From the IMG/VR virus record IMGVR_UViG_3300033156_000223, positions 1-43,211 of that record: a DNA stretch of 43,211 nucleotides. One strand, 5' to 3'. Position numbers and translations under genes: made by a program. Positions 3,980-35,764 of the stretch are shown one piece after another. The stretch comes from a virus. Below the pieces are notes generated by a model, which saw only the letters and a program-made list of their open reading frames with translations, was not told the origin of the DNA and searched no databases. Within the stretch, counting starts at the first letter, position 1; each line of letters begins with the position of its first letter.

Positions 3980-4517
3980 TTTGCGTCTCCTTTTCCAGCT
4001 TGTGCATGATTCGCATAACTCGTTCGGCGTAATTCCTCGTCGATTCCTTCTTCCATCCGTTCGGCCCGCCGTTGTGGATGCGAGCCAGGTCGGCGTAGCT
4101 GGCGAGATGATGCAATCGCGAGGGCCTGCCATACCAGGACAAATACGTTACGACCATCTGAGTCGCTTTTTCGAGGTCGTATCTATCCTGGGCCGCAAAG
4201 GGAGATAAACCCTGTAGTTTGCGGATGCGATTGACGTCCTGTAGATAGATAGGCCGGATTTGATACGGTCCCGCAGCCTGCTCGGCAGCATTGTAAGCAC
4301 GAAGATCGCCACCGGATTCGACAGCGACCAGGGCGGCGAGGAACATCCGCCATCTCATTTCTGGGTTGATTTGTGGAACTGGAGTAGAGCATTTTTGTGC
4401 TGGCGACAAGGATGATAGTGACGATACACAGGTCTTTGTGGGTAGTTTCCAAACGGCCAGCCCGACCAGTAAAATGAGCCAAGCCAGCAGCGTGATTGAT
4501 ACCAGTCTGATTTTCAT
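3963..4517 (-). CDS. Membrane-anchored lytic transglycosylase / endolysin, SLT-like
   Basis: Residues 5-25 form one transmembrane or signal-anchor helix in this 184-residue protein. The catalytic region has 'AVESGGD' (putative catalytic E67), 'AAGPYQIRP' and 'IHNGGPNGW', the usual E-S-x-G, G-x-x-Q-I and H-N-G-G blocks of lysozyme-like transglycosylases. It would cleave peptidoglycan glycan strands. The start at 4517 has AGGAG 7 bases upstream; two earlier in-frame Met codons lack one. It sits in the early operon rather than beside the holin at 5909, so a role in entry or host-wall remodelling is possible as well as lysis. Confidence 0.75.
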   Translation of the reverse strand: MKIRLVSITLLAWLILLVGLAVWKLPTKTCVSSLSSLSPAQKCSTPVPQINPEMRWRMFLAALVAVESGGDLRAYNAAEQAAGPYQIRPIYLQDVNRIRKLQGLSPFAAQDRYDLEKATQMVVTYLSWYGRPSRLHHLASYADLARIHNGGPNGWKKESTRNYAERVMRIMHKLEKETQNGTDR

Positions 4518-10805: not shown

Positions 10806-11166
10806 ACTTGTAATATCCATCAATGCGTTTTTGCCAATATGGATTATCTATACGTTCTAAGCATACATTACGTTTTTTCATCACATGCAGAAAATGAAGC
10901 CGGTCCAACATGATACCAATATGGGTACAAAAACGCGGATGTAACTTGAAGACTACTAAGCAATAAGGTTCCGGTTCAGACAATTCTATGAACAGTCGTT
11001 TGGCGTTTTTTATAGTCTCCGACCGTAAGGACAAGTCTGCGACCCAGTTCCAGGAAGGTAGCCTGATGCCTGCTCTCTTATACACCTCTTGGCATAACGA
11101 ATAGCAGTTGTATCCGTTGAGTCCATACTCATCAAATGGTTGACCTATCAAGTCGGAGATATCCAT
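10753..11166 (-). CDS. NlpC/P60-family tail assembly protein (gpK-like)
   Basis: A 137-residue protein with the NlpC/P60 pattern: catalytic Cys in 'GYNCYSLCQEVYKRAGI' (C21) and His in 'FCTHIGIML' (H82), with a further His at about 94. These cell-wall peptidases at the tail tip help DNA delivery through peptidoglycan. Gene order L, K, J agrees with lambda. The ATG at 11166 follows the upstream stop by one base. Confidence 0.8.
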   Translation of the reverse strand: MDISDLIGQPFDEYGLNGYNCYSLCQEVYKRAGIRLPSWNWVADLSLRSETIKNAKRLFIELSEPEPYCLVVFKLHPRFCTHIGIMLDRLHFLHVMKKRNVCLERIDNPYWQKRIDGYYKYGTNLRATGSPKSVRPS

Positions 11167-11167
11167 G

Positions 11168-12004
11168 TTACGCAATCCTCACCGATCCCGTCCTGATCCC
11201 TGGAAAACCCCCAAAGCGTGTTTGGTTCTCATGAGTATAGCAATCAGCCAATGTACGGTTGCAAGAGTGGAAATATACCTTACCTCCAGATGTATAGGCT
11301 GAGTAGCCGGTGGTATTGATATCCACAGTGAAGGCATTGCCGTCGGCATCCGGGTCCGCATCGACTACTGTGCCTGTTTGACCGTTGATCTCGGTCATGC
11401 CTTCGACATCCTCGAAGTCCACTTCATCGTCTACCGAGAACGGATGATTAGCGACAGAAACCTTTGCATTGGCCGCTTGCGTTATGCCCGTTATTGTACT
11501 TCCTGCATATCCGCATTCAACAGACCGGTAAGTGAAGCTGCAATGCAAAGCCAAGTAGCGTTCCAGTGGAAAGCGTTGTCTGAGTGGATTTGGCGCGCCG
11601 AGGGTAAATACCGCCCAATCTACATCGCTGTAGCAGCCGAGGACATCGAAGGTCATCTCCAATTCGGAGTAGTCCTCCGATAACAGGTTAAGATTCACTA
11701 CGATTACCCGGACAGTAGAGCCCACGCCCCCGTCAAGCTCATCCAAGTACTGCTGCAAAAGCCTGGTGACATTGCTGACCCGCAAGGTAACCGTAGGTAT
11801 CTCCCCATGTGTATCTTGCGAGGTAGGCTCAATCTCAAAAGGGAAGGCCGTAAAGGTATGACCCTCGAACGTGACATCCTCTGTATTCCTGGCGAATCTT
11901 AGAACAGTGCTGTCTGTCAGGGTTATCTCAAGCAAGACCACCCAGGGATTGGGCGATGCCAACTTGTTCTTCTCGATTATAAGATTTGCTGGCAGATTCT
12001 TCAT
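11168..12004 (-). CDS. Minor tail protein L-like with an inserted E1_FCCH-like beta domain
   Basis: 278 residues. The N-terminal 150 residues are the gpL/DUF2163-like beta fold ('WVVLLEITLTDSTVLRFA', 'GEIPTVTLRVSNVT'). Cys residues at 124, 155, 164, 248 and 255 and the ending 'ENQTRFGGFPGI' match the metal/Fe-S end of the lambda gpL family. Between C164 and C248, residues about 172-245 are a separate beta module ('FSVDDEVDFEDVEGM', 'GYSAYTSGGKVYF') of the kind annotated as E1_FCCH in phages. The ATG overlaps the upstream stop (ATGA). Confidence 0.75.
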   Translation of the reverse strand: MKNLPANLIIEKNKLASPNPWVVLLEITLTDSTVLRFARNTEDVTFEGHTFTAFPFEIEPTSQDTHGEIPTVTLRVSNVTRLLQQYLDELDGGVGSTVRVIVVNLNLLSEDYSELEMTFDVLGCYSDVDWAVFTLGAPNPLRQRFPLERYLALHCSFTYRSVECGYAGSTITGITQAANAKVSVANHPFSVDDEVDFEDVEGMTEINGQTGTVVDADPDADGNAFTVDINTTGYSAYTSGGKVYFHSCNRTLADCYTHENQTRFGGFPGIRTGSVRIA

Positions 12005-12731: not shown

Positions 12732-14882
12732 TCAACCTCTCTCAAAGACACTCTCAATTGCTTTCCGAGACCTGCCGTAATGAGATACATCATTGACTAC
12801 GATATCGATAATAGCATCTCTCATATTCATATAACGCCTCCGAGAACTGGTCACACCTAAAGGTACACCAGACTCATTTACGATATTTACAGTTACCTCT
12901 GGTGTATTTCTACCTGCAGGTAAGATAGTTTCTCCAGTATGGATTTTTGCCAAACCTCCTTCAGCAACAAAACCACCTGTCTGTGCTTTCGGTACTGCGG
13001 CGGTAGTTGGCTTTGGACCGAACATGCCGGACAGCCATCCGCCTATGCTGACCGCTAAGGGTTCCGTGACCATCTTCTGCATTTGGATGCGTACAATATC
13101 CTGGAGCAGAGACCTGAGCACCTGGCTGGCTCGTTCAGCCCCGAATACCATCTTGCTGAATGCATCGGCAGCCGACTGTCCTATGCCTTCGAACATTTCC
13201 CTCAATCGCTTGGCAGACTCTAACTCTTTCAGCTTTTGATTGATTTGGGATTGGACCTTCATAAACTTTTCAGAAGTTTCACCATACTGCTGTTTTGCTG
13301 CATCCAAGGCTTCTATCATTGCCCTGGCATGCTGGTATGCCTCCCCTGTCATCCAAAGCGTTTGTTTCTCTGTCTCCAAAGTGTCAAGGAAGCTCTGTGT
13401 GGTTTCATTCAGCGGTTCTTGAGACTGAGTTCTCAATTTGTAGAGAGCAACTTGATAAGTCTCCACCTTGTTCTTCAGGCTTTCAAGAGTATCCAGCGCA
13501 TACTGTTTTAGCTTTTGCCACATAGATGGATGATATTCCGATTCTAAAGCCTGGAGCCTATTCACCAGCTTCTCTTGACTTTTGGATATATCGATATCAG
13601 ACTTTGACAAAAGGGCTTTCACGGTAGCTGAATACCGTGCCACGTGCTGTGCCATTACACTGCCCAGGCCTGCGATAATCTGTTCAGTCTTTTTTGCGAT
13701 AGCTTCTTGTTTCAGTGCTTGTTCCGCCTGAGCCCAGAGTTGTTCATTAACACGGGCTACTCGAACAGCACTATGCAGAGATATCAGTGGGCCTTTCGGG
13801 GCTGGCTCTGGTATATAAATCTTCTTGCCGCCAGCTACACCCAATTTGCCTCCCAGTTCCTGATATTTTTTGAGAATCGCAGTAACATCTGACGTTTTTG
13901 GAATGAGGCCCTCCTTAATGCCTTGCCATATTCCTTTGCCCGCAGCAATCGATAATGTTACTATTTCTCTCAATGCCAGATACATCGTCTGAACGAACAA
14001 GTCCCAGACAAGTTTCCAAGACTTTCGGAAATCGGATTTCATAAAACTAATGAAGTCTTTGAATATATCCTTTGCGAATCCCAAGTAAGCTACTAACCTA
14101 TGAGCCCAATATCCTATTTGTTGCTGGTTCTCTTGTGCCCAATTCTTTATTGCTATCGCAGCAGATTTGACTGAGGGAAGAAGCGCCGCCCCAATGACTT
14201 CGGCGACATCCCCTATAGCGTTTTTCATCTGTTTGAGTGCGCCCGAAGTAGTATCCGCCCTTGCCTTGGCTATCTCGAAACCTCTCGCCGCAAATTCGGT
14301 AAGAATTTGCAGTTGCTTGGTCTTGTCCGTCGTGGTGCGCAGTGCTGGAATGTATCGGCGCAACATAGTGAATTCGCCTTGCTGTGCCATAGCTACATAC
14401 ATAGCCATGGAATTTACGTCTCTCCCAGTTGCTGCGGCCAATCCAATCGCAGTGCGAGTTGCCTCCTTCAGCTTATCAGTAGATACTCCGAGGGACTTCT
14501 CCAACTGCATCAGCATGAGAACCTCTTCGTCGCCGTATGTAGTGACCTGCTGTATACTGGCAGCGAAATCTGTAAAGTCCCTCATTGCTCCCCGACTGTA
14601 TTCACCTGCCGCCTTCAGAGATGCCCCAAGTAAGAATACAGCATCCTCCTGCTTCATTGCTGCTTTTGTGGCCAGTGTCAGGGCGCCTGTAACCGCGACA
14701 GCACCCCACTTGGCGTACCTGACCATTTTATCAAAGGCATCCTTGAAGGACGTAGCCATCCGCCGGAAAGAAGATTTGATTCTATCCACCGTTTTAGTTA
14801 CGGCACTTTTAGCCTTCGATAGTTGTGATGGTAGCTTTGAATCGTCAACCTTGATCGCGACATCGGCTGTCAAGAAGTTCAT
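12732..14882 (-). CDS. Tape measure protein
   Basis: This is a 716-residue, largely helical protein with a hydrophobic segment at about residues 56-76 ('YAKWGAVAVTGALTLATKAA'), a conserved-looking 'LGVSTDKLKEATRTAIGLAA' tape-measure block, a long coiled-coil middle (about 370-560) and a C-terminal 'GGFVAEGGLAKIHTGETIL' segment common to siphophage tape measures. It sets tail length and probably forms a channel at injection. The length predicts a relatively short tail. It follows the frameshifted chaperone genes, the normal order. Confidence 0.88.
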   Translation of the reverse strand: MNFLTADVAIKVDDSKLPSQLSKAKSAVTKTVDRIKSSFRRMATSFKDAFDKMVRYAKWGAVAVTGALTLATKAAMKQEDAVFLLGASLKAAGEYSRGAMRDFTDFAASIQQVTTYGDEEVLMLMQLEKSLGVSTDKLKEATRTAIGLAAATGRDVNSMAMYVAMAQQGEFTMLRRYIPALRTTTDKTKQLQILTEFAARGFEIAKARADTTSGALKQMKNAIGDVAEVIGAALLPSVKSAAIAIKNWAQENQQQIGYWAHRLVAYLGFAKDIFKDFISFMKSDFRKSWKLVWDLFVQTMYLALREIVTLSIAAGKGIWQGIKEGLIPKTSDVTAILKKYQELGGKLGVAGGKKIYIPEPAPKGPLISLHSAVRVARVNEQLWAQAEQALKQEAIAKKTEQIIAGLGSVMAQHVARYSATVKALLSKSDIDISKSQEKLVNRLQALESEYHPSMWQKLKQYALDTLESLKNKVETYQVALYKLRTQSQEPLNETTQSFLDTLETEKQTLWMTGEAYQHARAMIEALDAAKQQYGETSEKFMKVQSQINQKLKELESAKRLREMFEGIGQSAADAFSKMVFGAERASQVLRSLLQDIVRIQMQKMVTEPLAVSIGGWLSGMFGPKPTTAAVPKAQTGGFVAEGGLAKIHTGETILPAGRNTPEVTVNIVNESGVPLGVTSSRRRYMNMRDAIIDIVVNDVSHYGRSRKAIESVFERG

Positions 14883-22735: not shown

Positions 22736-25700
22736 CTAAACAGCCTCGGCATAACCTGCCATGCTGTATCCAATTAGTTTGCCCGCCTTGACGGCTTCCC
22801 AAGCATCTTTATCCAAGATTTTAGTAGTCAACAGCCAACTGCCCTTTTTGACTTTCTGGCCTGCAATAACTAAATCCTGGGGAGCAATATAGCTTTCGAG
22901 CACTTTCGCCTTTATCGGCCTGCCGTGATGGTTGAGTTTATACTGCTGTGCATGTTCCATAAAGTAATATGCAGCTTTTCGTATCTCTTCTTCGGAGGCC
23001 GAATCGCCCTGAGCATCTACAGTATCAGGTTCATATACCACCCCACAGACGATTTGTTCATCCGCCTTTTTGATGAATATAGGTACATATTTTTCTATGT
23101 CAAGCTTAGAAATCATCCAAACACGACCTTCTTTAACAGGCACATAGGCGAATAAGTATACTCCATCAGTTAAAACCTTGCAACCAGTAAGTTTAATCTT
23201 TTTAGCGTGCTTGTCAGACTGAATCATCTCGAAATCGAAATAATCCAGCGCTATCATAATACTATACGTATTCGCGAAAGCACCTACTTCTCCCGGCTCG
23301 ATTATCTCCACACGGTCCTTGCCTACATCCATCCAGCTAACCGGGCCGCGTATAGTTTCCGCTGTCGGGTCTTCGACATGCGGAGTTTTCCATCCGAATC
23401 GCAGCTTGGCCTTATCTTCCAGCAGCTTCCTGAGCTTGGTCAGTCCCGATATGTTGCCGACCATTATCTCGCCGCCCTCGAAGTAATCATCCCCCTCGCG
23501 CACCAGTCGTAAATCCAAATGACAAGCCTGCTCTCCAATAGTCTCTTTCAGTATCTTCTGGAGCTTTAAGTAGTCGTGCCTGGCTTCAAAGATTTCTTTG
23601 GCGTGCTCTTTTAGGGCGTCAATGTATTTTTCTTCTATCCCCATCACATGCAACTGCAAAACGCCTTTGCCGGTATCCCCGACTTTGTAGTCGATGTTGC
23701 CTTCCACCTCGGCTTTTTGGAGGATATTGCCGCGAGATGCCAGGGCCACAACCTGATTGGCATAATACGGCGTTGACCGATCCGAGTCGATATCGATAAC
23801 CCTGGGCCCTAACCAGTCTAATTCGTCTCTTGCAATGATTTCCTCTACTCCCACAGTTAGAATATCACCTACATTAGCTTTCAACTTCGTATTGAAAGTT
23901 TTGCCTAACACGACGTAGGTTTCACCGCCGATCTCTTTGGTATTGGTATAGGAAGAATCGCCCGCTAAAACACCTACAGTATAATTATATGTGCCGGCTT
24001 TTGTTTTGTGCACGTCTAATACTATAACCTTAATCTCTGCCTCCAGTTTGATTTTTGACCAGTCCTCGGCACTGCCGTCGGTGTCCCAGATGGAATCCAG
24101 GGCCTTAATCACCACCCCTTCGCTTTGCGGGAGCTTCGAGAGGTCCTCGAAAGCCTTGGTAAGCTGCATCCTGTTCTTGGCAATCCTGAAATGTGTCAAT
24201 GTAAAATTGCGGCTTCCCTTGAGATACTTACCGAAGAACTCCTCCAAGAGCTTCCTGCGCTCCTCAAGGGGGACCAGGTGCTTATCTGTCTTCCAATACG
24301 GAAGATCGAAGCATGCGGCTACGATGTATTCATCTTCATCCAATTCCAGCTCATCCGACATGAGAGTCATCAGTTGGATTCGGGGCAATGGTTTCGTGCC
24401 TTTGTTGATGCCTATGCTCATATCCAAAATGAAGTCGTCGGGTATTTGCTCCAAGACCTCTCGTAATTCAGCGAACTGTTTTGTTCTGTTCTTTCTGCCT
24501 TCTGTCCAAATAGCTAACTTGTTATCCTTCTTTTCTGCAATAACCCTGAAACCGTTCAGCTTTTCTTCAACATCTACTGGCCATCGTTTCTCTACCCAGT
24601 CTTGGATATCCTCATATTTGAAGGCTTCGGTGATATTAGACATGGCAGGCTTCGGAGGTATGTATCTGCCAAATGGTCTTAGCCTCGACTTCTTGGCATC
24701 TACTACTATAACAGCAGTGTTGGTATCCTGTATTTTACGCACTTTGACGCAGCTGCTTAGCTTAGAGGGCTTGATTAAGTCCTCCTCAAGCTGGTCTACG
24801 GAGTCATATTCTTGTTTGTGTGTAGGGTCGAAACGCTTTCCCAAAGGCACTATGAATACACATGCTCGCTTGGCTATCTGTCGAGATTTCTGAAGAATAG
24901 CCACAGGGTCATCCAGATGTTCAAGCAGATGGACACCGATAACATTATCAAACCCACCAGCTTCATAAGGTAGCTCCTCCTTTTCGATATCGAGCTTGCT
25001 GACTTTGAGGCCCTTGGCCTTACTCATCTTAACAGCGAGGTCCTCCTTATCAACGCCTGTTACCCGATAAATGCTTGACAACCGTTTTTCGAGTCTCCCC
25101 GTGCCACAACCCAATGATAACACCGTATCGCCCTGCAAGTACTTGGTTAGTTCGCGGTATTCCACCTCGAAATCGTCAGACCATTCATCGAGACCGTCAT
25201 AGTACTCTTGCAGTGACTTCTTATAGTCTTCTTCCACCACTACCTTATTGAGTTCCGATTTTGGTCTAAGTACCAGGTCGTATAGCGGGAGATACGTAGC
25301 GTGAGGGCCTTTTGTGGAGTATATAAACTCTTTGCCTTTTTTTGCCAAAGTGTCTTGTTTGTCTAATGTCCTGACGAGTTTAAGTTCAAGCCCGGTGTCC
25401 CTATTTCTCTCATCTTCGCGCAGGAGAATGTCCACATCGTTCGCGTCATTCAAATTGGATACTCCAGAGCCAACGAGCGAAACGTAATCTGGCACCACCA
25501 CCATTGTATCCAACATCGAAATATCGAATCCGATTTTGGCAATTTCCATGGACCTCTTAAATGCTGCCCTATCGATATCTTCGGTGCTGTGCTCGAGCTT
25601 GCGTTTGTTGTACTCCCTGAGAAGCAGCCTGTACTTCGCCAGGAAATCGGAACGGTTCAGGCTACCGACTACTACCTTATCATTGTCCTTGAAATTTTTG

Positions 25701-25792
25701 TTCCATAGCTGGATTTGCCTCAGGCGAAGTGCTAATAACTCCCGATTGGGCGCTTTGGCTAAACTTTCGCGAGTAATGTCTTCGATACGCAT
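22736..25792 (-). CDS. Five-domain fusion: nucleotidyltransferase-like, SAM methyltransferase, ATP-dependent DNA ligase, LigD-type phosphoesterase, XkdF capsid protease
   Basis: 1018 residues. Residues about 95-180: pol-beta-type nucleotidyltransferase signature 'LVGSGVSNLNDANDVDILL'. Residues 215-345: Rossmann methyltransferase with 'VLSLGCGTGRLEKRL' and 'IGVHLLEHLDDP'. Residues 395-660: ATP-dependent DNA ligase with motif I 'EEKLNGFR' (nucleophile K411), motif IV 'EGVVIKA' (558-564), motif V 'WSKIKLE' (K580, K582) and an OB fold; the motif III region reads 'FILDMSIGI', without the usual acidic residue. Residues 695-900: LigD-type 3'-phosphoesterase with 'HLDLRL' (H758) and 'EPGEVGAF'. Residues 905-1018: XkdF-like serine protease ('CGVVYEPDTVDAQGD', H954/H955, S1010 in 'GYSMAGYA'). 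It lies exactly where the prohead protease gene should be. Confidence 0.8.
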   Translation of the reverse strand: MRIEDITRESLAKAPNRELLALRLRQIQLWNKNFKDNDKVVVGSLNRSDFLAKYRLLLREYNKRKLEHSTEDIDRAAFKRSMEIAKIGFDISMLDTMVVVPDYVSLVGSGVSNLNDANDVDILLREDERNRDTGLELKLVRTLDKQDTLAKKGKEFIYSTKGPHATYLPLYDLVLRPKSELNKVVVEEDYKKSLQEYYDGLDEWSDDFEVEYRELTKYLQGDTVLSLGCGTGRLEKRLSSIYRVTGVDKEDLAVKMSKAKGLKVSKLDIEKEELPYEAGGFDNVIGVHLLEHLDDPVAILQKSRQIAKRACVFIVPLGKRFDPTHKQEYDSVDQLEEDLIKPSKLSSCVKVRKIQDTNTAVIVVDAKKSRLRPFGRYIPPKPAMSNITEAFKYEDIQDWVEKRWPVDVEEKLNGFRVIAEKKDNKLAIWTEGRKNRTKQFAELREVLEQIPDDFILDMSIGINKGTKPLPRIQLMTLMSDELELDEDEYIVAACFDLPYWKTDKHLVPLEERRKLLEEFFGKYLKGSRNFTLTHFRIAKNRMQLTKAFEDLSKLPQSEGVVIKALDSIWDTDGSAEDWSKIKLEAEIKVIVLDVHKTKAGTYNYTVGVLAGDSSYTNTKEIGGETYVVLGKTFNTKLKANVGDILTVGVEEIIARDELDWLGPRVIDIDSDRSTPYYANQVVALASRGNILQKAEVEGNIDYKVGDTGKGVLQLHVMGIEEKYIDALKEHAKEIFEARHDYLKLQKILKETIGEQACHLDLRLVREGDDYFEGGEIMVGNISGLTKLRKLLEDKAKLRFGWKTPHVEDPTAETIRGPVSWMDVGKDRVEIIEPGEVGAFANTYSIMIALDYFDFEMIQSDKHAKKIKLTGCKVLTDGVYLFAYVPVKEGRVWMISKLDIEKYVPIFIKKADEQIVCGVVYEPDTVDAQGDSASEEEIRKAAYYFMEHAQQYKLNHHGRPIKAKVLESYIAPQDLVIAGQKVKKGSWLLTTKILDKDAWEAVKAGKLIGYSMAGYAEAV

Positions 25793-26978: not shown

Positions 26979-28295
26979 TTATCCGCCCTCAGGCTCCGAC
27001 TCTCCCGATTCTATCAGATTGCTCGCAATGTAGAACTTATTTCCTTCGTCGTAGGGGTCCATGCCCAAAGCAACACGCGCCTCGTTGGGAGTCAATATGC
27101 CAAACTGTACTTGCTTGATGATCTGGTCTACTTCTTCCGCCCGATTGCGTAAGTCTATATCCTCAAACTTGAATTGGTATACATCGGATTGTAGCAGCTT
27201 CCCATTGATAATATCTTCTATGTCATTTTGCAAAGGCTCGACTACACTTTTGACATAGACCCGAGTAGCTTCTTCAGCGACGTTCCCGCCCAGCTTGCCT
27301 ACCACACGTATGCCCACCCGCTCAGGCGGCATCGAATATGCGATGAGTATGCTGTCCCTTCTGTTTTGCTCGTACAGTCGAAAGCTCGCTTCTTGGGCGG
27401 TAGAATTTATTGGGATGTATGTAAACTTGCAGTTGTCCGGCTGCGTTACTACCAGTGTCTTGTGCGCATTCTCAGTGCCTCTTATCTCCCGGTTCAGGAA
27501 TTCAGTAATGCGACGATCCGAATCCTCCTCCCAGTCACCTTCCAGGATTATGATGGCGGAAGGCACCCCATAGTTCTCGAAAAATGCCAGGTTATAGTCC
27601 CGCAGGCCCATAAGGCCGAGAACGTCGCCAACGGTACTGATGAAATTGGGAACGCCATAATAATCGCTCTTGGCATAGTCGTTGCGATAGAAGATTAGTT
27701 CGTTCGCCCTGGTCTTTAGCGGATACTTGCCTTCCTTGCCGGTCTCCAGAGATATATCCGCAGGGAACCCGAACTTCTTGAACCATATCTTCTTCGTCCC
27801 TCGAATCTGGCAGTACTTCGTCTGTGATTTATGAACTCTTATCGTGTGTGCAGGGACATGGTATAATGCTACGATATCGCCTTGAAGATTGCGAACCACC
27901 TCCATGCAACACCAGCCTACAGAGCCCCAATCCTTCAGCATTCTGCGTATGATAGTGCGGAAATAATCTTCCTCATTTGGCCTGTGCAAAAGCTGGGTAA
28001 TCCTCTCCTTTTCCTGGACCGATTCCTTTTGGTTCTCTTTTAGCTGTAAGGTCCAGCCAAGACCGGCGACATCTGCCGCTAACTGGTTGACGCAACGAAA
28101 CAGTACCGAATTGGATTCGTATAAGGCCAGCAAGGTATCCGGGGAATACGGAGGCTCAACGAGGCCCTGCTCAAAGGCCCAAGTCGCCTCTTTCTTCAGC
28201 TGCTTGGAAGCGCTGTAATCTTGTGCCTTTCGGAGAAACGAATACGGGTAAATGCCTTTCGTAGTTTTGACAAATACCTTGCCCTTAGCCGACAT
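26979..28295 (-). CDS. Portal protein
   Basis: 438 residues with HK97-type portal blocks: 'YESNSVLFRCVNQLAADVAG', 'YYGVPNFISTVGDVLGLMGL', 'FFENYGVPSAIIILEGDWEE' and 'LTPNEARVALGMDPYDEGNK'. Twelve copies form the DNA entry ring at one capsid vertex. AAAGGGG precedes the ATG at 28295. The start overlaps the TerL stop by 11 bases, the usual TerL-portal order. Confidence 0.88.
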   Translation of the reverse strand: MSAKGKVFVKTTKGIYPYSFLRKAQDYSASKQLKKEATWAFEQGLVEPPYSPDTLLALYESNSVLFRCVNQLAADVAGLGWTLQLKENQKESVQEKERITQLLHRPNEEDYFRTIIRRMLKDWGSVGWCCMEVVRNLQGDIVALYHVPAHTIRVHKSQTKYCQIRGTKKIWFKKFGFPADISLETGKEGKYPLKTRANELIFYRNDYAKSDYYGVPNFISTVGDVLGLMGLRDYNLAFFENYGVPSAIIILEGDWEEDSDRRITEFLNREIRGTENAHKTLVVTQPDNCKFTYIPINSTAQEASFRLYEQNRRDSILIAYSMPPERVGIRVVGKLGGNVAEEATRVYVKSVVEPLQNDIEDIINGKLLQSDVYQFKFEDIDLRNRAEEVDQIIKQVQFGILTPNEARVALGMDPYDEGNKFYIASNLIESGESEPEGG

Positions 28296-31200
28296 AAATA
28301 GACCCCTTTCTACCAGGTCTGTCTACAGAATATATGACATATCTCAAGGCGTCACAATTACTTACAAGAATGCTGTTCGCATAGTACTCATGGACTGTAT
28401 CTACAGTCAGGTTGTAGACGGGCGCCTTGCCTGCTCTTTTTGCGCCTAAATAGACCACCGCATTTTCGGGAACAGCATTTTGTCTTGCTGTATTTGTTGG
28501 TTGAAAACTGCTTTTTGCATATAATGCAGGTTCTGATTTCGTTATCAACTTGGTTTTCCCGTCGCCAAGCAGATTTGCACTTATTGGAGCAAAATCTGGT
28601 ATTATTTCTCCGGGCCATATCATTATATTTTTTGCCACACTGTATACATGTCTTAACCAGCGGTTTGCGCTTCTTATAGATCTCTTTAGCATGTTGGCTA
28701 TGCCATTTGCGGCCCTTAATGGATCTGTGCCATTCGGCAGCCGCCTGAAGGATTTCTGGGCGTAGCCTTGAACCTTTTGGGTTGTTGCGTCTGGAGTGTT
28801 CGCTTTTATGTAAACGACTCTCTTTGAGTTCAAGGTTATCGAGCTCGTTATTGAGCGGATTCCCGTCTTTATGATGGATCTCATAACCTTCAGGAATTTC
28901 GCCATAAGCATCTTTCCAGATTTCCCTGTGTAGGTACCGGGTGCCGAATTCTGGATGCCAGCTGGCTCGGTAGTATACTTTATCTGCCCATACTGTTGAA
29001 TCGGGGTATCTTCTATATGGCACATCTTTGTATATGATTTTTTCGTGTAGCATGATGATACTATTGTGTCTCCATATCTCAAATCCACCAGAGGAATAAA
29101 TCCTTTTCCCTGTACATATATCGGATGTTCTTTTGTGCCCGTAAGCTCACTGCCGTCGGAAAAGGCGACTGTTATTACATCAGCATTATTATATGTCATC
29201 CCTGATGCAACTACTGGATAATACCCCTGCCTTGTCAAAACTTTATCGCCTCGCTGTATTTGCTCAATAGGTTTTTCGCCTTCTTGCGTCTCTATAAGCG
29301 TCCCCGCAACAAAGCATGTGTGGTCGTTCTTTGGCATCGGCAGGTCCTGGGCGTTTCTCTGCTTCGATGCCGAAGGATAACTGTATGTGGCAAGCTCCCT
29401 ACAAGTGTTCCTGCAATTGTTGAAGATGTACAAGCCCGGTTTGCCGTTCTCTCGTATCTTCAACTTCGCCTGGACGGTCTCGATACCTCTGGCAACGTCT
29501 TTTCTGGCCGGCTTTGTCGGGATACCAGCCTTGCGAAGTGCGGCCCGGTCCGCTGCATTCTCCGGGTCTGCCCAGGATTCTATGTAATGCTCGTCGCCGC
29601 TGAGCCTCAGAATGTTCCCGATGTGCTCGTCAATCCCCGTTTTGGCCTTGTAGTACTCTCGATACACATACCAGACGTTGTCTTTATCCTTGGTCATCCA
29701 CAGACACACAAACGGATTCGTGAAGCCGAAATCAAAGCCTCGATACTTAGGCCACCCTTCGGGAATTTCAAACGGCTTGATGACATGAGTTCTACGATTG
29801 AACGTCTTGTATACCGCTCCGTAGAACGAGGCGAATTCACCTCTTATGCGTGTAGCTTGCACCTCCTCGGGCCAGTCATCAATCATGGCGTCGATTCTCT
29901 CGTCTGGTATGTAGCCGCCTAATGATACACGATTCGAGTTAAGGTCGGCGTAGAATACCTCGTCCGTGTCCGGCAGGTCCTCAATACGCTCTTCCAAGTA
30001 CGGCTGGGGTATAATGGGCGTCATGGACCAGGAAAGTCTGCCGGATTTGGCCAACAACCTTGCTTGAATTTCGTTGAAAATGCCTTGAAAATCGTGGTGA
30101 CACTGTTCGTCGCAATAGCAAGAATCTATGGCTCGGCCCTGGAAGAGGTCCCTACCCTGGTTGAATGCCTTAAATTCTATGCGGGAGCCGTTCTTTAACA
30201 GTACCCTGCGTGGCACCCTGTCCTGGCCGTAGTTGATACTGAATATCTGGTGCGGAGGGATAAACCTCTTGAGATTCGATTCCCACAAAATATCCCTGAC
30301 CTGCTCCCAGCTTTCGATACACGCCCAATGCAGCCCATTCTTGACGGTCCTGGCAGGATGCACCCCCATCACTAACATTGCCAGGTCCATCATGTTAGTA
30401 AACGTCTTGCCGCTATTGTGGTGAATGATGCCGCCTGCTAAATAGTTGTGGAAATGCGGTACAGTAAAATCCCAAATGTAATCAAAACGCTTGACCTCCA
30501 CACTTGTTACCGCTATAATGCCTTTGCTATCGCTTTTAGGAGTACAGCATGAAACGGAAACTTCCTCTTCGAGATCGTGGCAAAAAGCCGAAATGCTGGG
30601 ACTATCCGGTTGAGTCCATACGGCAGTGGATCGCACAGGGCAAAACGCAGGCATGGATTGGAAACAAGCTCGGCGTAAGTCCAAAGCTGATTTATAAAGT
30701 TTGCAAAAAACACGGTATAAAGTGTCAAAGGCGAGGGCCGAGATCCGGCACCAAACATCCAAATTGGAAGGGCGGTCGAATCGTTGACAAGGATGGTTAT
30801 ATATTATGTTACTGCCCTGGGCATCCTCACGCCCGCCGCCATAGCAACTATGTCTTCGAGCATCGCTTAGTGATGGAGTATCATTTAGGTCGATATCTAT
30901 TGCCCAATGAAGTGGTTCACCACAAAAACGGCAATAAGAGCGATAACCAGCTTGCGAACCTTCAACTTTTTTCGAGCAATGCAGAGCATCTTCGGAAAGA
31001 GCTAAAGGGTCGTTGCCCGGAATGGACGGAGGCTGGAAAAGAAAAGATCCGACTCGCAATTCAGAAATCCGCTGCCATTCGCCGGAAACGCCTAAAACTA
31101 AATGGTCCCCTGAGCAGGTGATCGTTTGTCCATTTGACAGACGTAGCCTGTAAAGCTGTGCTTTCTCTTTCTTGAACGGCGTATTTGCCGATGCAATGAC

Positions 31201-31434
31201 TACCTTTTGGCCGTCAAAGGCGTAAACATGAAAGGGCCTGGTTCTCTCTGATACGGGGATACTTGTTTTTTCTACGGGATCGTAAATCGGCTGTTCGCCG
31301 CCAAGACACTGATTCCCCCCAAAGAACCACCTGATAGGAGCTTGAGACAAGTGGAAGTCACGCCGCACTTTATCTAATGGATGATAAAGCGCCAACTCTT
31401 CGCCCAACCATTTAATCTCTGGAATAGCCAACAT
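28285..31434 (-). CDS. terL: Terminase large subunit carrying two inteins
   Basis: 1049 residues as translated; about 431 after removal of two inteins. Extein ATPase: 'IRWFFGGNQ' joined to 'SGKTFT' (Walker A), 'RAIDSCYCDEQ' (Walker B region, residues 434-444). Extein nuclease: 'GFDFGFTNPF' and 'PKNDHT' joined to 'CDALRY'. Intein 1 = residues 43-340, inserted in the P-loop; intein 2 = residues 707-1026, inserted in the last nuclease motif. Both are sites where loss of splicing would abolish activity. The motor packages DNA into the procapsid. The gene overlaps the stop of the upstream structural gene closely and the portal ATG by 11 bases. Confidence 0.9.
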   Translation of the reverse strand: MLAIPEIKWLGEELALYHPLDKVRRDFHLSQAPIRWFFGGNQCLGGEQPIYDPVEKTSIPVSERTRPFHVYAFDGQKVVIASANTPFKKEKAQLYRLRLSNGQTITCSGDHLVLGVSGEWQRISELRVGSFLFQPPSIPGNDPLALSEDALHCSKKVEGSQAGYRSYCRFCGEPLHWAIDIDLNDTPSLSDARRHSCYGGGREDAQGSNIIYNHPCQRFDRPSNLDVWCRISALAFDTLYRVFCKLYKSALDLRRACFQSMPAFCPVRSTAVWTQPDSPSISAFCHDLEEEVSVSCCTPKSDSKGIIAVTSVEVKRFDYIWDFTVPHFHNYLAGGIIHHNSGKTFTNMMDLAMLVMGVHPARTVKNGLHWACIESWEQVRDILWESNLKRFIPPHQIFSINYGQDRVPRRVLLKNGSRIEFKAFNQGRDLFQGRAIDSCYCDEQCHHDFQGIFNEIQARLLAKSGRLSWSMTPIIPQPYLEERIEDLPDTDEVFYADLNSNRVSLGGYIPDERIDAMIDDWPEEVQATRIRGEFASFYGAVYKTFNRRTHVIKPFEIPEGWPKYRGFDFGFTNPFVCLWMTKDKDNVWYVYREYYKAKTGIDEHIGNILRLSGDEHYIESWADPENAADRAALRKAGIPTKPARKDVARGIETVQAKLKIRENGKPGLYIFNNCRNTCRELATYSYPSASKQRNAQDLPMPKNDHTCFVAGTLIETQEGEKPIEQIQRGDKVLTRQGYYPVVASGMTYNNADVITVAFSDGSELTGTKEHPIYVQGKGFIPLVDLRYGDTIVSSCYTKKSYTKMCHIEDTPIQQYGQIKYTTEPAGIQNSAPGTYTGKSGKMLMAKFLKVMRSIIKTGIRSITSSITLNSKRVVYIKANTPDATTQKVQGYAQKSFRRLPNGTDPLRAANGIANMLKRSIRSANRWLRHVYSVAKNIMIWPGEIIPDFAPISANLLGDGKTKLITKSEPALYAKSSFQPTNTARQNAVPENAVVYLGAKRAGKAPVYNLTVDTVHEYYANSILVSNCDALRYVIYSVDRPGRKGSIYVG
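28357..29316 (-). other. Intein 2 of TerL (320 residues), C-terminal nuclease motif site
   Basis: Begins with Cys ('CFVAGTLIETQEG', block A), has block B 'GTKEHPIYVQGKGF', block F 'APVYNLTVDTVHEYYANS' and ends 'ILVSN' followed by Cys as first extein residue. The penultimate residue is Ser rather than the usual His. The middle ~210 residues do not look like a conserved domain in this frame; instead an HNH gene is encoded in another frame over 28388-29053. Confidence 0.88.
28388..29053 (-). CDS. HNH homing endonuclease nested out of frame in TerL intein 2
   Basis: 221 residues, same strand as TerL but in a different reading frame. HNH_3-type core 'YLHREIWKDAYG', 'EGYEIHHKDGNPLNNELDNL' (H60, H61) and a following His-rich helix. 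Two zinc-finger repeats follow: C136/C139 with C155/C159 and C176/C179 with C193/C198. The only SD-like GGAG lies 16 bases before the ATG, so initiation may be weak or coupled to TerL translation. It probably cleaves intein-less terL alleles to spread the intein. Confidence 0.85.
   Translation of the reverse strand: MLHEKIIYKDVPYRRYPDSTVWADKVYYRASWHPEFGTRYLHREIWKDAYGEIPEGYEIHHKDGNPLNNELDNLELKESRLHKSEHSRRNNPKGSRLRPEILQAAAEWHRSIKGRKWHSQHAKEIYKKRKPLVKTCIQCGKKYNDMARRNNTRFCSNKCKSAWRRENQVDNEIRTCIICKKQFSTNKYSKTKCCSRKCGGLFRRKKSRQGARLQPDCRYSP
30415..31308 (-). other. Intein 1 of TerL (298 residues), Walker A site
   Basis: Begins with Cys 43 ('CLGGEQPIYDPVEKTSIPV', block A), block B 'TITCSGDHLVLGVSGEWQ', block F 'FDYIWDFTVPHFHNYLAG' and ends 'IIHHN', followed by Ser as first extein residue. 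Splicing joins GGNQ to SGKT and restores the P-loop. The ~190 residues between splicing halves are low-complexity-like in this frame because that DNA encodes an HNH endonuclease on the other strand. Confidence 0.9.
30549..31121 (+). CDS. HNH homing endonuclease encoded antisense within TerL intein 1
   Basis: 190 residues on the plus strand, the only confidently coding plus-strand gene. Residues 20-60 are a helix-turn-helix ('WIGNKLGVSPKLIYKVCKKH'). Residues 68-150 are an HNH_3-type nuclease with 'KHPNWKGGRIVDKDGYI', 'FEHRLVMEYHLGRYL' and 'EVVHHKNGNKSDNQLANL' (H124/H125). It has its own ribosome binding site (AGGAG, 6 bases before the ATG at 30549). It exactly fills the space between intein splicing blocks B and F, while the opposite strand stays open for the intein. 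Confidence 0.9.
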   Translation: MKRKLPLRDRGKKPKCWDYPVESIRQWIAQGKTQAWIGNKLGVSPKLIYKVCKKHGIKCQRRGPRSGTKHPNWKGGRIVDKDGYILCYCPGHPHARRHSNYVFEHRLVMEYHLGRYLLPNEVVHHKNGNKSDNQLANLQLFSSNAEHLRKELKGRCPEWTEAGKEKIRLAIQKSAAIRRKRLKLNGPLSR

Positions 31435-31435
31435 A

Positions 31436-31939
31436 CTATTCTAATTCCAACCTACCGAGTACGTTGTTGGCACTGGTTATATTAGTACCAGCCGTATTCT
31501 TCATGGTCTGACGCAACAACACTTCCTTGGTGTCCTTGTCTCTGTACTCTAATACCCAGGGGCTGCTTGTAGTATCTATTACCTTGTCTGCCTCGGCGAG
31601 TTTGCGGAACAATTCGTTTTGGGCCAGGACGTCATCCCCTATCGGTACGTTGAGATTGCCCGATTCCTTGGCGTATAGCCTATATCGCGTCTCGGCAACC
31701 CAGACAGCCGAAGGGAATGATAAGTACCAGTGCCCAGCGGCTCTATGTGTTGCCTCTCCGGCAATTGCCTCCGCAGATTGCCAGGTTTGATCCGAACCTC
31801 GATACCACTTGTCGGCATTCGGACCGTCTTCATCGACCAGGTAGAAATTGACTGTGCCCGACGTAATAGGCGAACCGTCTGAGCGGTTCACCAGAGGCAA
31901 AGACAATACGTTTGCCTGTCCTGCGATTGCAATTTTCAT
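31436..31939 (-). CDS. Virion-associated structural protein, beta-rich
   Basis: 167 residues; begins 'MKIAIAGQANVLSLPLVNRS', with an Ig-like N-terminal part ('ITSGTVNFYLVDEDG') and 'WVLEYRDKDTKEVLLRQTM' near the C-terminus. This pattern occurs in phage structural proteins near terminase genes in metagenomic siphophages. It ends in TAG one base before the TerL ATG. Function unknown, possibly head fibre or neck component. Confidence 0.55.
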   Translation of the reverse strand: MKIAIAGQANVLSLPLVNRSDGSPITSGTVNFYLVDEDGPNADKWYRGSDQTWQSAEAIAGEATHRAAGHWYLSFPSAVWVAETRYRLYAKESGNLNVPIGDDVLAQNELFRKLAEADKVIDTTSSPWVLEYRDKDTKEVLLRQTMKNTAGTNITSANNVLGRLELE

Positions 31940-31947
31940 TTCTACAC

Positions 31948-32355
31948 TCAGCTAAGCGTAATAATACCCGAGGCGTCCCACTGTATCGTAAAGGTGCCGT
32001 TGGAAACCGTTTTCGCCCCTCCAAAGTCGATGGAGCAAATCAAATCATCGCCTACCAGACTATCGTCGTAGATAACTGCATGGTAGGCCGTGAAAGAGGC
32101 GCTGGTCCAGGAAACATCATCGGCATCGAACTTGGTAGTAGCCCCCTGTGTCACAGCCTTGCTCGCAAGAGTTTCTCCGCCGGCAGTATAACCTGTACCG
32201 CTTATTTCATTCGCCGATACGTCGGACCAGGTATTATCCGTAGCCGTAAATGAATGGTTGTCATCCAACAACGCTACCTTTATTGTATCAGCCTCCAGGT
32301 CCACTTCCTTATTCATCAGATTAGCTTTGAACCGATTGTAGCATCCGCTTGCCAT
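31948..32355 (-). CDS. Phage structural (cement/neck) protein
   Basis: 135 residues starting 'MASGCYNRFKANLMNKEVDL' then 'DTIKVALLDDNHSF' and 'FTAYHAVIYDDSLVGDDLIC'; this opening is widespread in siphophage and metagenomic virion proteins annotated as structural or decoration proteins. Beta-rich, with Thr/Ser-rich loops. It lies in a cluster of virion surface genes between TerS and TerL. Confidence 0.65.
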   Translation of the reverse strand: MASGCYNRFKANLMNKEVDLEADTIKVALLDDNHSFTATDNTWSDVSANEISGTGYTAGGETLASKAVTQGATTKFDADDVSWTSASFTAYHAVIYDDSLVGDDLICSIDFGGAKTVSNGTFTIQWDASGIITLS

Positions 32356-32357
32356 AT

Positions 32358-32525
32358 TTAACTCCTATTCTCTTCTTTTGTCCTTATTTCCAGAAAAGGT
32401 ACATGAACTATAACATCTTGTGACCCATCGTCTTTTTTTATTACTTCCGTCCTGCCTTCCAGGACGGGTATACCATGATCAATACGAACTACTTTTACCC
32501 ATTTATTTCCGACTTTAGTATACAT
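32358..32525 (-). CDS. Small hypothetical protein
   Basis: 55 residues from the ATG at 32525, which lies 11 bases after a GGAG and just past the stop of the upstream repeat protein. A TTG at 32558 is a possible alternative start. Beta-hairpin-like with 'GTEVIKKDDG'-type turns and a charged C-terminus ('EIRTKEENRS'). No family recognised. Confidence 0.5.
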   Translation of the reverse strand: MYTKVGNKWVKVVRIDHGIPVLEGRTEVIKKDDGSQDVIVHVPFLEIRTKEENRS

Positions 32526-32530
32526 ATATG

Positions 32531-33859
32531 CTATTTCTCCAACAAGTTCAATGCCCAAGCTACTTGAAATGCGCCCGTGGATATCACTGGTTCTATCACC
32601 GCGCCATTCAACTGCTGTACGATAGCAGCATATTCGGCGCTGGAGCTTACAAGAGCAGCCGGCTGTTGAGCTACTATATCAAGCACAGATACCGATTCTG
32701 TAACGTCGTAAGCCAGTCCTGGAGTACCCGCAGTCAACTGTATCTGTTGTGCGACCGGCTGTACTATAGTCCCATAGATAATAACCGGAGCTTCAACAGT
32801 GCCTGTCAGGGCTTGAGCACCCGGGGCAACGAGACACGTATATCGCACCGAGCCCCCGTAAAGCGTCGCAGACAAGGCCAATACAGAGACATCCAACTGA
32901 TAATCGTAGTTCGTGCCCGGGCTCTGCAGTGATGCTGATATCGCCTGGCTGCTTGGTGATACAATAGTCCCGTAGAGTATCTGGGGACCGTGTTCCGTCA
33001 AGGTAAGACCGAGTGAAGAGGCCGCCCACTTGTAATCGTAGTTTAATGTTGGTGTATGCAAAGCGATGGATAATCCGAGTGCCCCAACAGAAATTGTAGT
33101 ACTCGCTATGATCGAAGGTCCTGGAAGGGCCCCAGATAGCCCAATAGCCGATGCTACCCACTCATAATCATAGTTTAGCGTCGGTGCATGCAGAGTGGAG
33201 GACAGGTCGAGTACCCCGGCTGGTATGATAGTGCCGGCAACAACAGAGGGCTCTTGTAATGCAGAAGTCAATTCGAGAGCAGATGCACTCCACTCATAAT
33301 CGTATCCCAGGGCAGGATCGTGGGCAGATAGGGACAACCCTAACACGCTGGCCGAGACTGTCGCTCCAGCTATTACAGTCGGAGAGTATAGCGTGGAAGA
33401 TAGCTCGACGGAAACAACGCTCCATTTGTAATCGTAGTTCAGGTCTGGTGCAGGGATGGACCCTATCAGTTCCAAGGCAGCGACCGAAACCGTGCTCCCT
33501 GCTGATAGAGCAGGGCTTGGCAAACTCGAAGATATTGTCTGCGTCCCAACCCCAAATATGAAGTCATATTGCACTTGAACGCCCTGCTGCGCAGCAGTAA
33601 TGCTCTGAGCAGCAGGCTGTGTTACGACACTAAGATTCACCTGCGGTTGAGGCAGAGTTGCAGTGATATCCAACGCTGAGGCTACCTGGATAGTCGACAG
33701 TGAGACACTTGCGCTCTGCAATGTAGCAGAAAGCGTTATAGTCGATGGATATACAGTTACGTCTCCAGCAGCCGGCTCGGTATACACATTTGGTATACCG
33801 TTTATCCACTCGTAACGAGTAGTGCTAATCTCTACAGGTATACCGTTCGACCATTCCAT
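32531..33859 (-). CDS. 22-residue repeat protein, probable virion fibre or whisker
   Basis: 442 residues. After a 34-residue N-terminus ('MEWSNGIPVEISTTRYEW'), residues 35 to about 430 are some 18 copies of a 22-residue unit with the core x-A-x-x-L-x-L-S-x-x-L-x-x-P-x-x. Unit ends alternate between 'NYDYEW'-like and 'VAGTT'-like, giving a 44-residue super-repeat. The regular hydrophobic spacing predicts a beta-fibre or solenoid. The ATG overlaps the tailspike stop by one base. It probably forms an extended surface structure; no enzymatic motif is visible. Confidence 0.65.
   Translation of the reverse strand: MEWSNGIPVEISTTRYEWINGIPNVYTEPAAGDVTVYPSTITLSATLQSASVSLSTIQVASALDITATLPQPQVNLSVVTQPAAQSITAAQQGVQVQYDFIFGVGTQTISSSLPSPALSAGSTVSVAALELIGSIPAPDLNYDYKWSVVSVELSSTLYSPTVIAGATVSASVLGLSLSAHDPALGYDYEWSASALELTSALQEPSVVAGTIIPAGVLDLSSTLHAPTLNYDYEWVASAIGLSGALPGPSIIASTTISVGALGLSIALHTPTLNYDYKWAASSLGLTLTEHGPQILYGTIVSPSSQAISASLQSPGTNYDYQLDVSVLALSATLYGGSVRYTCLVAPGAQALTGTVEAPVIIYGTIVQPVAQQIQLTAGTPGLAYDVTESVSVLDIVAQQPAALVSSSAEYAAIVQQLNGAVIEPVISTGAFQVAWALNLLEK
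32570..33757 (-). repeat. Degenerate 66/132-bp tandem repeat coding array
   Basis: The DNA encodes about 18 copies of a 22-residue unit; alternate units resemble each other more than neighbours do, so the higher-order period is 132 bp. The 'TAATCGTAGTT'-like sequence (encoding N-Y-D-Y on the minus strand) recurs through the array. Confidence 0.75.
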
Positions 33860-35406
33860 CAGCTTATCACCGGTTCAACATCAACATATACACCACAACT
33901 TGCAGTGTATTTTGTTAGATTTACAGTCAAATATGCCCAACCTTCCCTGGCTGGAGTAAACGTAACGCTAAATCCTACCCAGGTAGTATTATCTGTTAAT
34001 ACTGCTGTTGATTTGGTTGTTGACCTATCTGCTGTAGCAGCATTGCTGAGGTAGCTTGCTTCTACGTAGAGTTCGGAGCTTGTTGGAAACGAAGACCATC
34101 CGAAACCTCTTATGTAGATAGTCACTGTCGTCTGTGCAGCAGAACACCATATCTTGAAATCCCCATGCAGCCAGTCATCTGCAATAGTCAGCGGTTCCTT
34201 GGAGCTTGCATTGCTTGATGGTTCTAATTTAGCTGAGCTGCTACCTCCACCACTACGCACAACAGTTGTATCCTTCGTAACAGAGCCAGTGTAATACCAT
34301 GACTTATGTGCCCCGAAGATTTGGTCGTGGTCTTCGCTGTGTATGACTCCACCGCCATAACCAGTGCGCTTTTGTTCTGTAGTGCTGGAAAGTATACAGT
34401 TGCGGAGTCTTATTATTCCCCCGGAACCAACACGTAGGTCCGATTCAGAATGAGTAGTGGTGCTTCCGAAAGTTGTGTCCTTTACATCAGTAATTCCGTA
34501 TGCACTATAAATTCCGTAGCTTGTTCCACTGTTACCCGAGTTGAATTCGCAACCTTCAATGAACATTATTCCATCATAGTTTACTACTCCGTAATTTCCA
34601 TTGTCGTAAAACTCTGTATTTATTAGATGCACACTTGAAACGCTTCTGTCATAAGCACCTGTACTTCCATTTCCTTGTATGACACAAGAATCTATGACAA
34701 TTCGCTTTGAATCATTTACACGAACGGCCCCATATGAATCGGTAGAACCCGTTAGATTGAGCTGGTGGAGCTTCCAATAGTTATCCCCACTAAGATACAT
34801 TTGGTATGAGGCGCTGCCGAATGAAATTACAGGCTTAACGTCGCTACCATCTGACCAAGGGTCATCTGTTGAATCACAGCCTTTGATAGTGATGTAGTTG
34901 TCTGCGTTTCCGTCTTCATCGAAAACAATATCAGCAGTATTGTAAGTATGCGTTTGATTCGCTCGAACCTTTGCGATATCTCCCGGAGTTCGAGCAGTTA
35001 CAGTAGTATATTTGGATAAGGTTTTCCAGGCGGCACCGGTTGATAATCCATCGTTTGAATCTGAACCATTCACATAGTCGATGTAGTAGGTTGTGCCGTG
35101 AGGCGTTCGCTTGACTTTTTCTTGGTTACGCCATTCAACTTCTTTCAATGTGCATGCGAACTTGTCTTTGAGGCGCTTCAGTTTTAGCTGCATGGCAACG
35201 CGATCATCGGGATCTTCTATTTCATGCAAGATCTCTAACAGCCTGCTGATTTTTTGGGGATAGAAGTCTAAAAGGTACAGAAGCTGGTCTTTGAACTTTA
35301 TGGGAAGAGCTCTAAGTTGAATCTTGGTTTCCCATTGGGCATCTGTCAACATGTAGTATGTTGGGTCGTTTTGTACTTCTTCTTTGAGTGCTGTATATTT
35401 AGTCAT
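33859..35406 (-). CDS. Right-handed beta-helix tailspike-like protein
   Basis: 515 residues from the ATG at 35406. Residues 1-105 are a helical head ('KFKDQLLYLLDFYPQKISRL', 'RVAMQLKLKRLKDKFACTL'). Then 'YYIDYVNGSDSNDGLSTGAA' starts a pectate-lyase-like beta-helix (about 115-350) with rungs such as 'VIDSCVIQGNGS', 'LINTEFYDNGNYGV' and 'IEGCEFNSGNSG'. The C-terminal ~150 residues are a carbohydrate-binding-like jelly roll ('WLHGDFKIWCSAAQTTVTIY'). It may bind or degrade surface glycans. It overlaps TerS by 8 bases, an unusual site for a tailspike. Confidence 0.7.
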   Translation of the reverse strand: MTKYTALKEEVQNDPTYYMLTDAQWETKIQLRALPIKFKDQLLYLLDFYPQKISRLLEILHEIEDPDDRVAMQLKLKRLKDKFACTLKEVEWRNQEKVKRTPHGTTYYIDYVNGSDSNDGLSTGAAWKTLSKYTTVTARTPGDIAKVRANQTHTYNTADIVFDEDGNADNYITIKGCDSTDDPWSDGSDVKPVISFGSASYQMYLSGDNYWKLHQLNLTGSTDSYGAVRVNDSKRIVIDSCVIQGNGSTGAYDRSVSSVHLINTEFYDNGNYGVVNYDGIMFIEGCEFNSGNSGTSYGIYSAYGITDVKDTTFGSTTTHSESDLRVGSGGIIRLRNCILSSTTEQKRTGYGGGVIHSEDHDQIFGAHKSWYYTGSVTKDTTVVRSGGGSSSAKLEPSSNASSKEPLTIADDWLHGDFKIWCSAAQTTVTIYIRGFGWSSFPTSSELYVEASYLSNAATADRSTTKSTAVLTDNTTWVGFSVTFTPAREGWAYLTVNLTKYTASCGVYVDVEPVIS

Positions 35407-35764
35407 TAAATCTCTCTCTGAGCTTGTTTCTGATGGTCTCGGCCAGGGCATCGTCCATAGAAGAATCTACCAGGTTCACCAGCCCCTCTATCGCACGCAG
35501 CTTCGGCAGCATGTAGTTAGCGATGTTGCTCATAGCCTTGGCGTCGCCCCAGGCCGCCTCTATCCAGGCCTCCATGAAATCCTTCTGCTTCCGCCGCTCT
35601 ACGGCCTTGATAGCTCGTCGCAGTTCTGCAATAGAGAAGTGGTTGATAGAGCCTTTTGGCCTGCCCTTAGGATTAGGAGACACACCCTTCAAGAACCGGC
35701 CCCGATCGTCCCTATCGGCTCGCTTGGCAGATTGCTTTTTTGTCGCCTTCTTCTCAACAGCCAT
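35399..35764 (-). CDS. Terminase small subunit-like protein (DUF5681-type)
   Basis: 121 residues with the DUF5681 motif 'GRFLKGVSPNPKGRPKGS' and a helical C-terminal region ('AMSNIANYMLPKLRAIEGL'). DUF5681 proteins commonly precede terminase large subunits and are taken as DNA-recognising TerS. Here it is separated from TerL by about 4 kb of virion surface genes. The N-terminus is Lys/Arg-rich. Confidence 0.65.
   Translation of the reverse strand: MAVEKKATKKQSAKRADRDDRGRFLKGVSPNPKGRPKGSINHFSIAELRRAIKAVERRKQKDFMEAWIEAAWGDAKAMSNIANYMLPKLRAIEGLVNLVDSSMDDALAETIRNKLRERFND

Follow-up and report, generated by a model that had tools for sequence, protein, structure and literature searches.

A 22-residue repeat widespread in phage proteins is a candidate stalk module of adsorption fibers

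Triple beta-spiral shafts, of the adenovirus fiber type, are made of 15-residue repeats, and the curli subunit CsgA is made of 22-residue units with two strands and a Q/N/G consensus. We compared both with a repeat protein encoded by a 43,211-base virus record (IMG/VR IMGVR_UViG_3300033156_000223), analyzed over its whole length and referred to here as the window. The window protein resembles the triple beta-spirals in having short serial beta repeats, of the kind that form a shaft, and in the fixed placement of its turn residues; however, its period is 22 or 44 residues rather than 15. Like CsgA, it has a 22-residue unit for which two strands are predicted, but the Q/N/G consensus is absent from the position-by-position profile of the repeat family, which reads PTVTYDCTVTPSAQALTLTLQA.

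Among cultured phages, the nearest relative is gp28 of mycobacteriophage Bask21 (Kostyavirus), a phrog_553 "minor tail protein." It is one of 47 records, all from Mycobacterium phages, that tblastn returned for the repeats of a related locus, L004 (E 3e-6 for gp28), and hhalign gave this link a moderate probability of 44%. The repeats of another related locus, L003, matched gp23 of phiT46-1 at E 9e-3, a weak match that was missed by a profile trained on six loci. Both cultured proteins belong to phrog_553, and a phrog_644 gene comes after each (gp29, E 4.4e-38; gp24, E 1.6e-46); they were found by repeat queries without phrog_644 as bait. In both phages, the repeat gene closes the tail module and adjoins lysis genes. 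Bask21 gp28 shares with the window protein Pro-anchored repeats of about 20 to 25 residues, located at the N-terminus in gp28, and a phrog_644 gene next downstream; in contrast to the window protein, it has few, irregular units and a different C-terminal domain. The window protein itself had no match to phrog_553 (PHROGs, E ≤ 1).

The repeat gene of the window occupies 32531..33859 on the minus strand, with its ATG at 33859 and its stop ending at 32531, and encodes 442 amino acids, which agrees with the coordinates given in a sequence-only reading of this DNA. That reading had also counted about 18 copies of a 22-residue unit, and residues 28-423 do consist of 18 back-to-back units in a single register with zero indels. 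A profile found 17 of these units, and all 16 spacings between them were 22. Residue identity within the protein was 0.209 at lag 22 and 0.291 at lag 44, compared to a maximum of 0.145 at any tested lag in 500 shuffles. The shuffles, together with protein-level relatives that have no DNA repeats, rule out chance or artifact as the source of the repeat.

Tandem Repeats Finder reported no DNA-level repeat in this gene. At identical residues within the array, the same codon was used at 33 of 113 positions at lag 44 (33.6 expected) and at 18 of 88 positions at lag 22 (23.2 expected). Because there are no DNA repeats and codon sharing does not rise above expectation, we conclude that the array is old and maintained by protein-level selection; the codon use rules out a recent tandem DNA duplication as its origin.

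Two kinds of unit are present in the array. In the register that starts at the conserved proline, the motif NYDY(E/K)W falls at positions 4-9, and an aromatic unit reads P-x-L-N-Y-D-Y-E/K-W. Aromatic units start at residues 94, 138, 182, 226, 270, and 314. On average, adjacent units are identical at 4.82 of 22 residues and next-but-one units at 7.12, and a permutation of unit order (20,000 rounds) gave p = 0.00055 for a two-type alternation. Aromatic (Y-D-Y/F) units take turns with non-aromatic ones, producing a 44-residue period, only in the middle of the array (residues ~94-312; 32924..33580, minus strand), and the alternation is lost toward both ends.

We collected relatives using the phrog_644 neighbor as bait, which fetched 80 viral loci and 14 genome-contig loci. 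The set that was kept comprised 99 loci, including the window and phage records, and most of these were fetched by the bait. A periodicity test (12 to 45) on the 755 ORFs of ≥200 aa in the 99 loci identified 45 strongly periodic ORFs after removal of overlapping ORFs. The period was 22 or 44 in 34 of the 45 (22 ORFs with period 22 and 12 with period 44), a count that mixes kinds: in L013 and L034 the period of 44 comes wholly or partly from a distinct DGTN-motif module with a length of about 44 residues, and L081 and L022 have a period of 22 but a consensus of quite another kind, rich in Gly or in Ser/Thr. The 22-column profile detected arrays in 40 ORFs from 39 of the 99 loci, including the window, and the profile trained on six loci gave scores above shuffles to 42 ORFs, spread over 40 of the remaining loci, out of 475 that were at least 250 aa long. 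L001, L005, and L089 to L091 (duplicates) and L082 and L083 (portal relatives) were left out of the periodicity and profile counts, and low scores for L084 8063-9598 and L085 2761-4947 were not counted, each being one weak place with a score raised by the small spread of the null.

An HMM built from the window units only matched L004 (7e-40), L003 (2e-27), L035 (1e-26), L002 (2e-25), L042 (3e-21), L007 (1e-15), and L054 (3e-11), with the best reversed decoy at 0.004. The profile E-value of the window protein against itself was 1.5e-139. We abandoned iterated profile HMMs as a source of E-values when reversed sequences scored, reaching 2.4e-14 at the third round; they do so because the L-x-L-x-L pattern reads nearly alike in both directions. 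With the 22-column profile, reversed repeat proteins scored up to 107 and shuffled proteins reached 0.1, and these controls establish order in the sequence, not direction.

Searches of Pfam, PHROGs (E ≤ 1), NCBIfam, and PDB sequences gave no match to the window protein. The match to a well-known fiber family that the sequence-only reading had named as evidence against itself was thus not found in these libraries. Searches with the window protein against phages (tblastn) and viral contigs found nothing, nor did a profile of 16 segments against PDB sequences. Scans with the repeats of L004, L035, and L042 returned only their own contigs or a duplicate, and the L035 repeats had no match in phages. 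Literature searches on 22-residue repeats in phage tail, fiber, or virion proteins gave no title or abstract that describes this repeat, which may have been published under a different wording. The repeat is part of a widespread, so far unmodelled family. Its spread, in loci mostly baited by phrog_644, and the annotation of Bask21 gp28 do not support a fiber of a "new type" in the form that the sequence-only reading had proposed. The kind of structure is known, and it is the module and its two unit classes that seem to be undescribed in the libraries and literature searched.

The window protein has the properties that define the 22-residue family, namely, ungapped 22-residue units, hydrophobic alternation, proline at position 1 and often at position 11, and a phrog_644 gene close by. 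Spacings and units were counted in 35 proteins, leaving out six near-duplicates. Among 302 spacings, 232 were 22, 30 were 20, 26 were 24, and only 7 were odd (295 even); some of the 20s and 24s could come from the profile slipping by two along the alternating pattern. The even spacings fit strands that are obliged to keep an inner and an outer face. Aromatic-D units make up 25 of 367 units and occur in 8 of the 35 proteins. Proline is at position 11 in just one of these 25, compared to 208 of the 342 others (Fisher p = 9e-9, although the units are not independent of one another), so the existence of two kinds of unit, first noticed in the window, is real across the family. Because aromatic-D units alternate in the window but stand in direct succession in L035, the 44-residue rule is local, whereas the two unit kinds are real. 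Relative to L002 and L003, the window protein has gaps inside the array of exactly 22, 44, and 22 residues, which, together with the aromatic runs in L035, rule out 44 residues as the family unit. A true repeat length of 44 residues, as claimed in the sequence-only reading, therefore holds for the middle of the window array and fails for the family, in which the unit is 22; the two faces that had been derived from a 44-residue unit lose their support with it.

AlphaFold2 modelled the window protein (7 sequences) as nearly all strand, with a strand per 11 residues along much of the model, at a mean pLDDT of 43.6. An eight-unit piece of L004 (14 sequences) was modelled at a mean pLDDT of 53.8 as 16 strands of ~8 residues, one per 11 residues. 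Two strands per 22-residue unit are predicted at low confidence; the secondary structure is consistent between the models, and the tertiary model is not trustworthy. We entertain, as a tentative idea, that the unit is an undescribed fiber fold of two 11-residue strand-turn steps, serving as an exchangeable stalk module in many phage lineages, with the order of proline-type and aromatic-D-type units setting the surface pattern of the rod.

Foldseek found no match to the L004 model at E ≤ 0.001 (276 weaker rows in the viral libraries and 111 in PDB). VIA-align 2 paired this low-confidence model with solenoid-like chains (best Z 12.1 over 175 residues, rmsd 3.2, with SufD, 5awg_B), a pairing that, for a repeat, may reflect common arrangement only. 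The pairing and the clustering of aromatic residues in some units are consistent with a monomeric beta-solenoid with two strands per turn that itself binds glycans rather than acting as a passive stalk. Given the low pLDDT and the Foldseek result, the inability of a monomer predictor to reveal a trimer, and the separate lectin-like domains in most relatives, we consider a glycan-binding solenoid improbable.

We scanned the domain architecture of 20 repeat proteins with Pfam and PHROGs. On the N-terminal side of the repeats, Laminin_G_3 scores above the Pfam cut-off in six of them (L002, L003, L040, L015, L054, and L014), and weak matches are seen there in L012 (to a CBM) and in L004 (to a beta-helix). 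Beyond the repeats, either C-terminal to them or following them, PHROGs recognized a tail or virion domain in 8 of the 20: phrog_396 in L004, phrog_18 in L040, L012, and L015, phrog_376 in L024, phrog_400 in L009, and phrog_26502 in L037 and L013. The other 12 proteins, some of which are cut by contig ends, have no such domain after the repeats. In L004, L040, L012, and L015, a single chain runs from a lectin-like or beta-helix part through the repeats to a minor tail protein. The window protein has the same repeat unit as these minor-tail-protein-L-like fusions but lacks both flanking domains: Laminin_G_3, which L002 and L003 have, is absent from its chain, as is the C-terminal gpL-like domain (PF05100 / phrog_18) of L040, L012, and L015, and the phrog_18 gene of the window is separate (11168-12004). 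No recognized head or tail domain was found in the window protein with Pfam, PHROGs, and NCBIfam. A cell-surface or secreted product of a lysogen, rather than a virion protein, might be suspected if similar repeats exist outside phages, as they might; the tail-domain fusions of the relatives and the placement of the window gene among structural genes on the same strand make such a product highly improbable.

L035 (8721-9370), L034 (7392-8080), and L013 (10542-11200) carry, on the N-terminal side of their 22-residue repeats, another tandem module, about 44 residues long and marked by a DGTN motif. This module appears propeller-like by eye.

The repeat gene of the window has the large terminase gene on one side and a possible small terminase gene on the other. 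The gene preceding it (33859..35451, minus strand) encodes a 530-aa protein with a weak match to the right-handed beta-helix family PF13229, just below the curated cut-off (E 3.8e-5, 23.8 bits; cut-off 25.9), and a weak match to the tail-fiber family phrog_32409 (E 8.5e-5). Its TGA overlaps the ATG of the repeat gene as TGATG, which suggests coupled translation of two parts that form one chain in L004, and the beta-helix-like protein is a candidate partner head domain for the repeat stalk. On the other side of the repeat gene is a small ORF (32358..32525, minus strand; listed as 32358-32558 from a TTG, with an ATG at 32525 by our reading), for which L002 and L003 have a similar ORF at the equivalent place. 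It is followed by the gene for the 135-aa phrog_644 protein (31948..32355, minus strand; E 2.2e-34), the recurrent neighbor of repeat genes, and by a gene for a 167-aa protein (31436..31939, minus strand) that has no family match of weight and no relative in the genome contigs.

L002 and L003, from uncultured phages in IMG/VR, have the gene order of the window: LamG-repeat gene, small ORF, phrog_644 gene, a counterpart of the 167-aa gene, and large terminase gene. Their repeat units, 14 in number, likewise lie in one register, and they share with the window protein the C-terminal sequence AFQVAWALNL (residues 430-439; 32542..32572, minus strand in the window), which is identical in all three and may be the attachment end of the window protein. 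They differ from the window protein in the N-terminal Laminin_G_3 domain, in having four fewer units, and in sequence, with 37% identity over the aligned part.

Elsewhere, the window encodes a tail fiber J (7611-10823), the phrog_18 minor tail protein, a tape measure protein (12732-14882), a tail terminator, and head closure proteins, a gene content that points to a lambda-like siphophage. The terminase ORF (28285-31434, minus strand) contains two inteins. The first (aa 43-340, 298 aa) is at the Walker A site and holds an opposite-strand ORF for a 190-aa HNH endonuclease (30549-31121, plus strand; HNH_3 E 3e-11), and the intein frame is uninterrupted across this insert. At the same site, L002 and L003 contain a mini-intein of 140-152 aa. 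The second (aa 707-1026, 320 aa) overlaps an ORF for a 221-aa HNH endonuclease on the same strand in another frame (28388-29053, minus strand; HNH_3 E 1.9e-15), and L002 and L003 match both of its ends, closer together. Such a pair, in which each intein comes with an out-of-frame endonuclease gene, seems unusual. An ORF of 1018 aa (22736-25792, minus strand) is an odd fusion, with a DNA-ligase-like match to phrog_114 (residues 391-613, E 2.7e-15) and a C-terminal match to the head maturation protease family phrog_3017 (residues 897-1017, E 1.9e-42). Another ORF (3092-4132, minus strand), for a phrog_4433 protein of unknown function, has 13 copies of a 27-base tandem repeat (9 residues) at 3303-3658.

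Because the cassette lies apart from the tail module (~7.6-17 kb) and before the large terminase gene, head, neck, and tail are all compatible as its location. In the satellite phage MiniFlayer, a phrog_644 gene, with a LamG protein (gp8) one gene on, is located after the major capsid gene and before the head-to-tail adaptor. The phrog_644 protein of MiniFlayer (gp6; L086 5001-5435) is the closest to that of the window among cultured phages, at 49% identity, and gp9 is not like the 167-aa protein of the window. The published account of MiniFlayer (PMC10690885) proposes an adsorption module there and reports that its fibers attach to the neck of the helper. The repeat profile matches gp8 at one place only, so MiniFlayer is evidence for the cassette rather than for the repeat; phrog_644 may be a general component of adsorption modules. 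The MiniFlayer arrangement favors a head or neck appendage, such as a head fiber or whisker for loose attachment to surfaces, over a tail part, as does the position of the cassette in the window, L002, and L003, where the large terminase and portal genes come immediately after it. We judge such an appendage unlikely, as gene position is weak evidence for place in the virion, the fused relatives join the repeat to minor tail or tail protein domains, the Bask21 and phiT46-1 genes are in tail modules, and the match in MiniFlayer is confined to that one place. The "head whisker" of the sequence-only reading is accordingly unsupported as stated, since Bask21 gp28, the closest relative from a cultured phage, carries a minor tail protein annotation; its beta-fiber with a possible receptor-binding role fared better, in that near-all-strand models and lectin-like and tail fusions indicate a beta-rich repeat that is probably part of a receptor-binding or adsorption structure.

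We assign a probability of roughly 0.6 to the reading in which the window repeat protein serves as the stalk of a modular adsorption fiber of the virion, an adjustable spacer in the gear that holds the host. Each 22-residue unit would form two beta strands of ~8 residues, connected by tight turns close to the position 1 and position 11 prolines. Units in series would form an extended spacer, the length of which varies by whole units. In relatives, one chain carries an N-terminal lectin-like or beta-helix domain, then the array, and lastly a C-terminal tail-anchoring domain. In the window, the head domain seems to be split off into the preceding beta-helix-like ORF, with the conserved C-terminus as a possible attachment end. 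We infer the stalk function, virion location, host-binding role, and partnership with the beta-helix-like protein from several observations: the indel-free register over 18 units, the strand predicted every 11 residues in the L004 model and along much of the window model, the predominance of even spacings, the whole-unit gaps relative to L002 and L003, the lectin-like and tail domains flanking arrays in relatives, and the pairing of a phrog_553 minor tail protein with a phrog_644 gene in both cultured groups. Against a stalk on the tail, the window gene is outside the tail module; because it lies between the possible small and the large terminase genes, the tail location is taken from relatives. 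Also counting against the stalk reading are the lack of a head or tail domain in the window protein and of a tail or virion domain after the repeats in 12 of the 20 scanned repeat proteins, the low confidence of the structure models, and the moderate and weak strength of the Bask21 and phiT46-1 links, respectively.

If the stalk reading is true, one short repeat would account for many proteins now called "hypothetical" or "minor tail." The repeat would mark the stalk of an adsorption module, with a lectin-like receptor-binding domain on one side and a tail anchor on the other, and a simple profile would let annotators find host-binding genes in uncultured phages. The fold would be directly testable, given that the unit is short and regular and that L004 has near-consensus copies.
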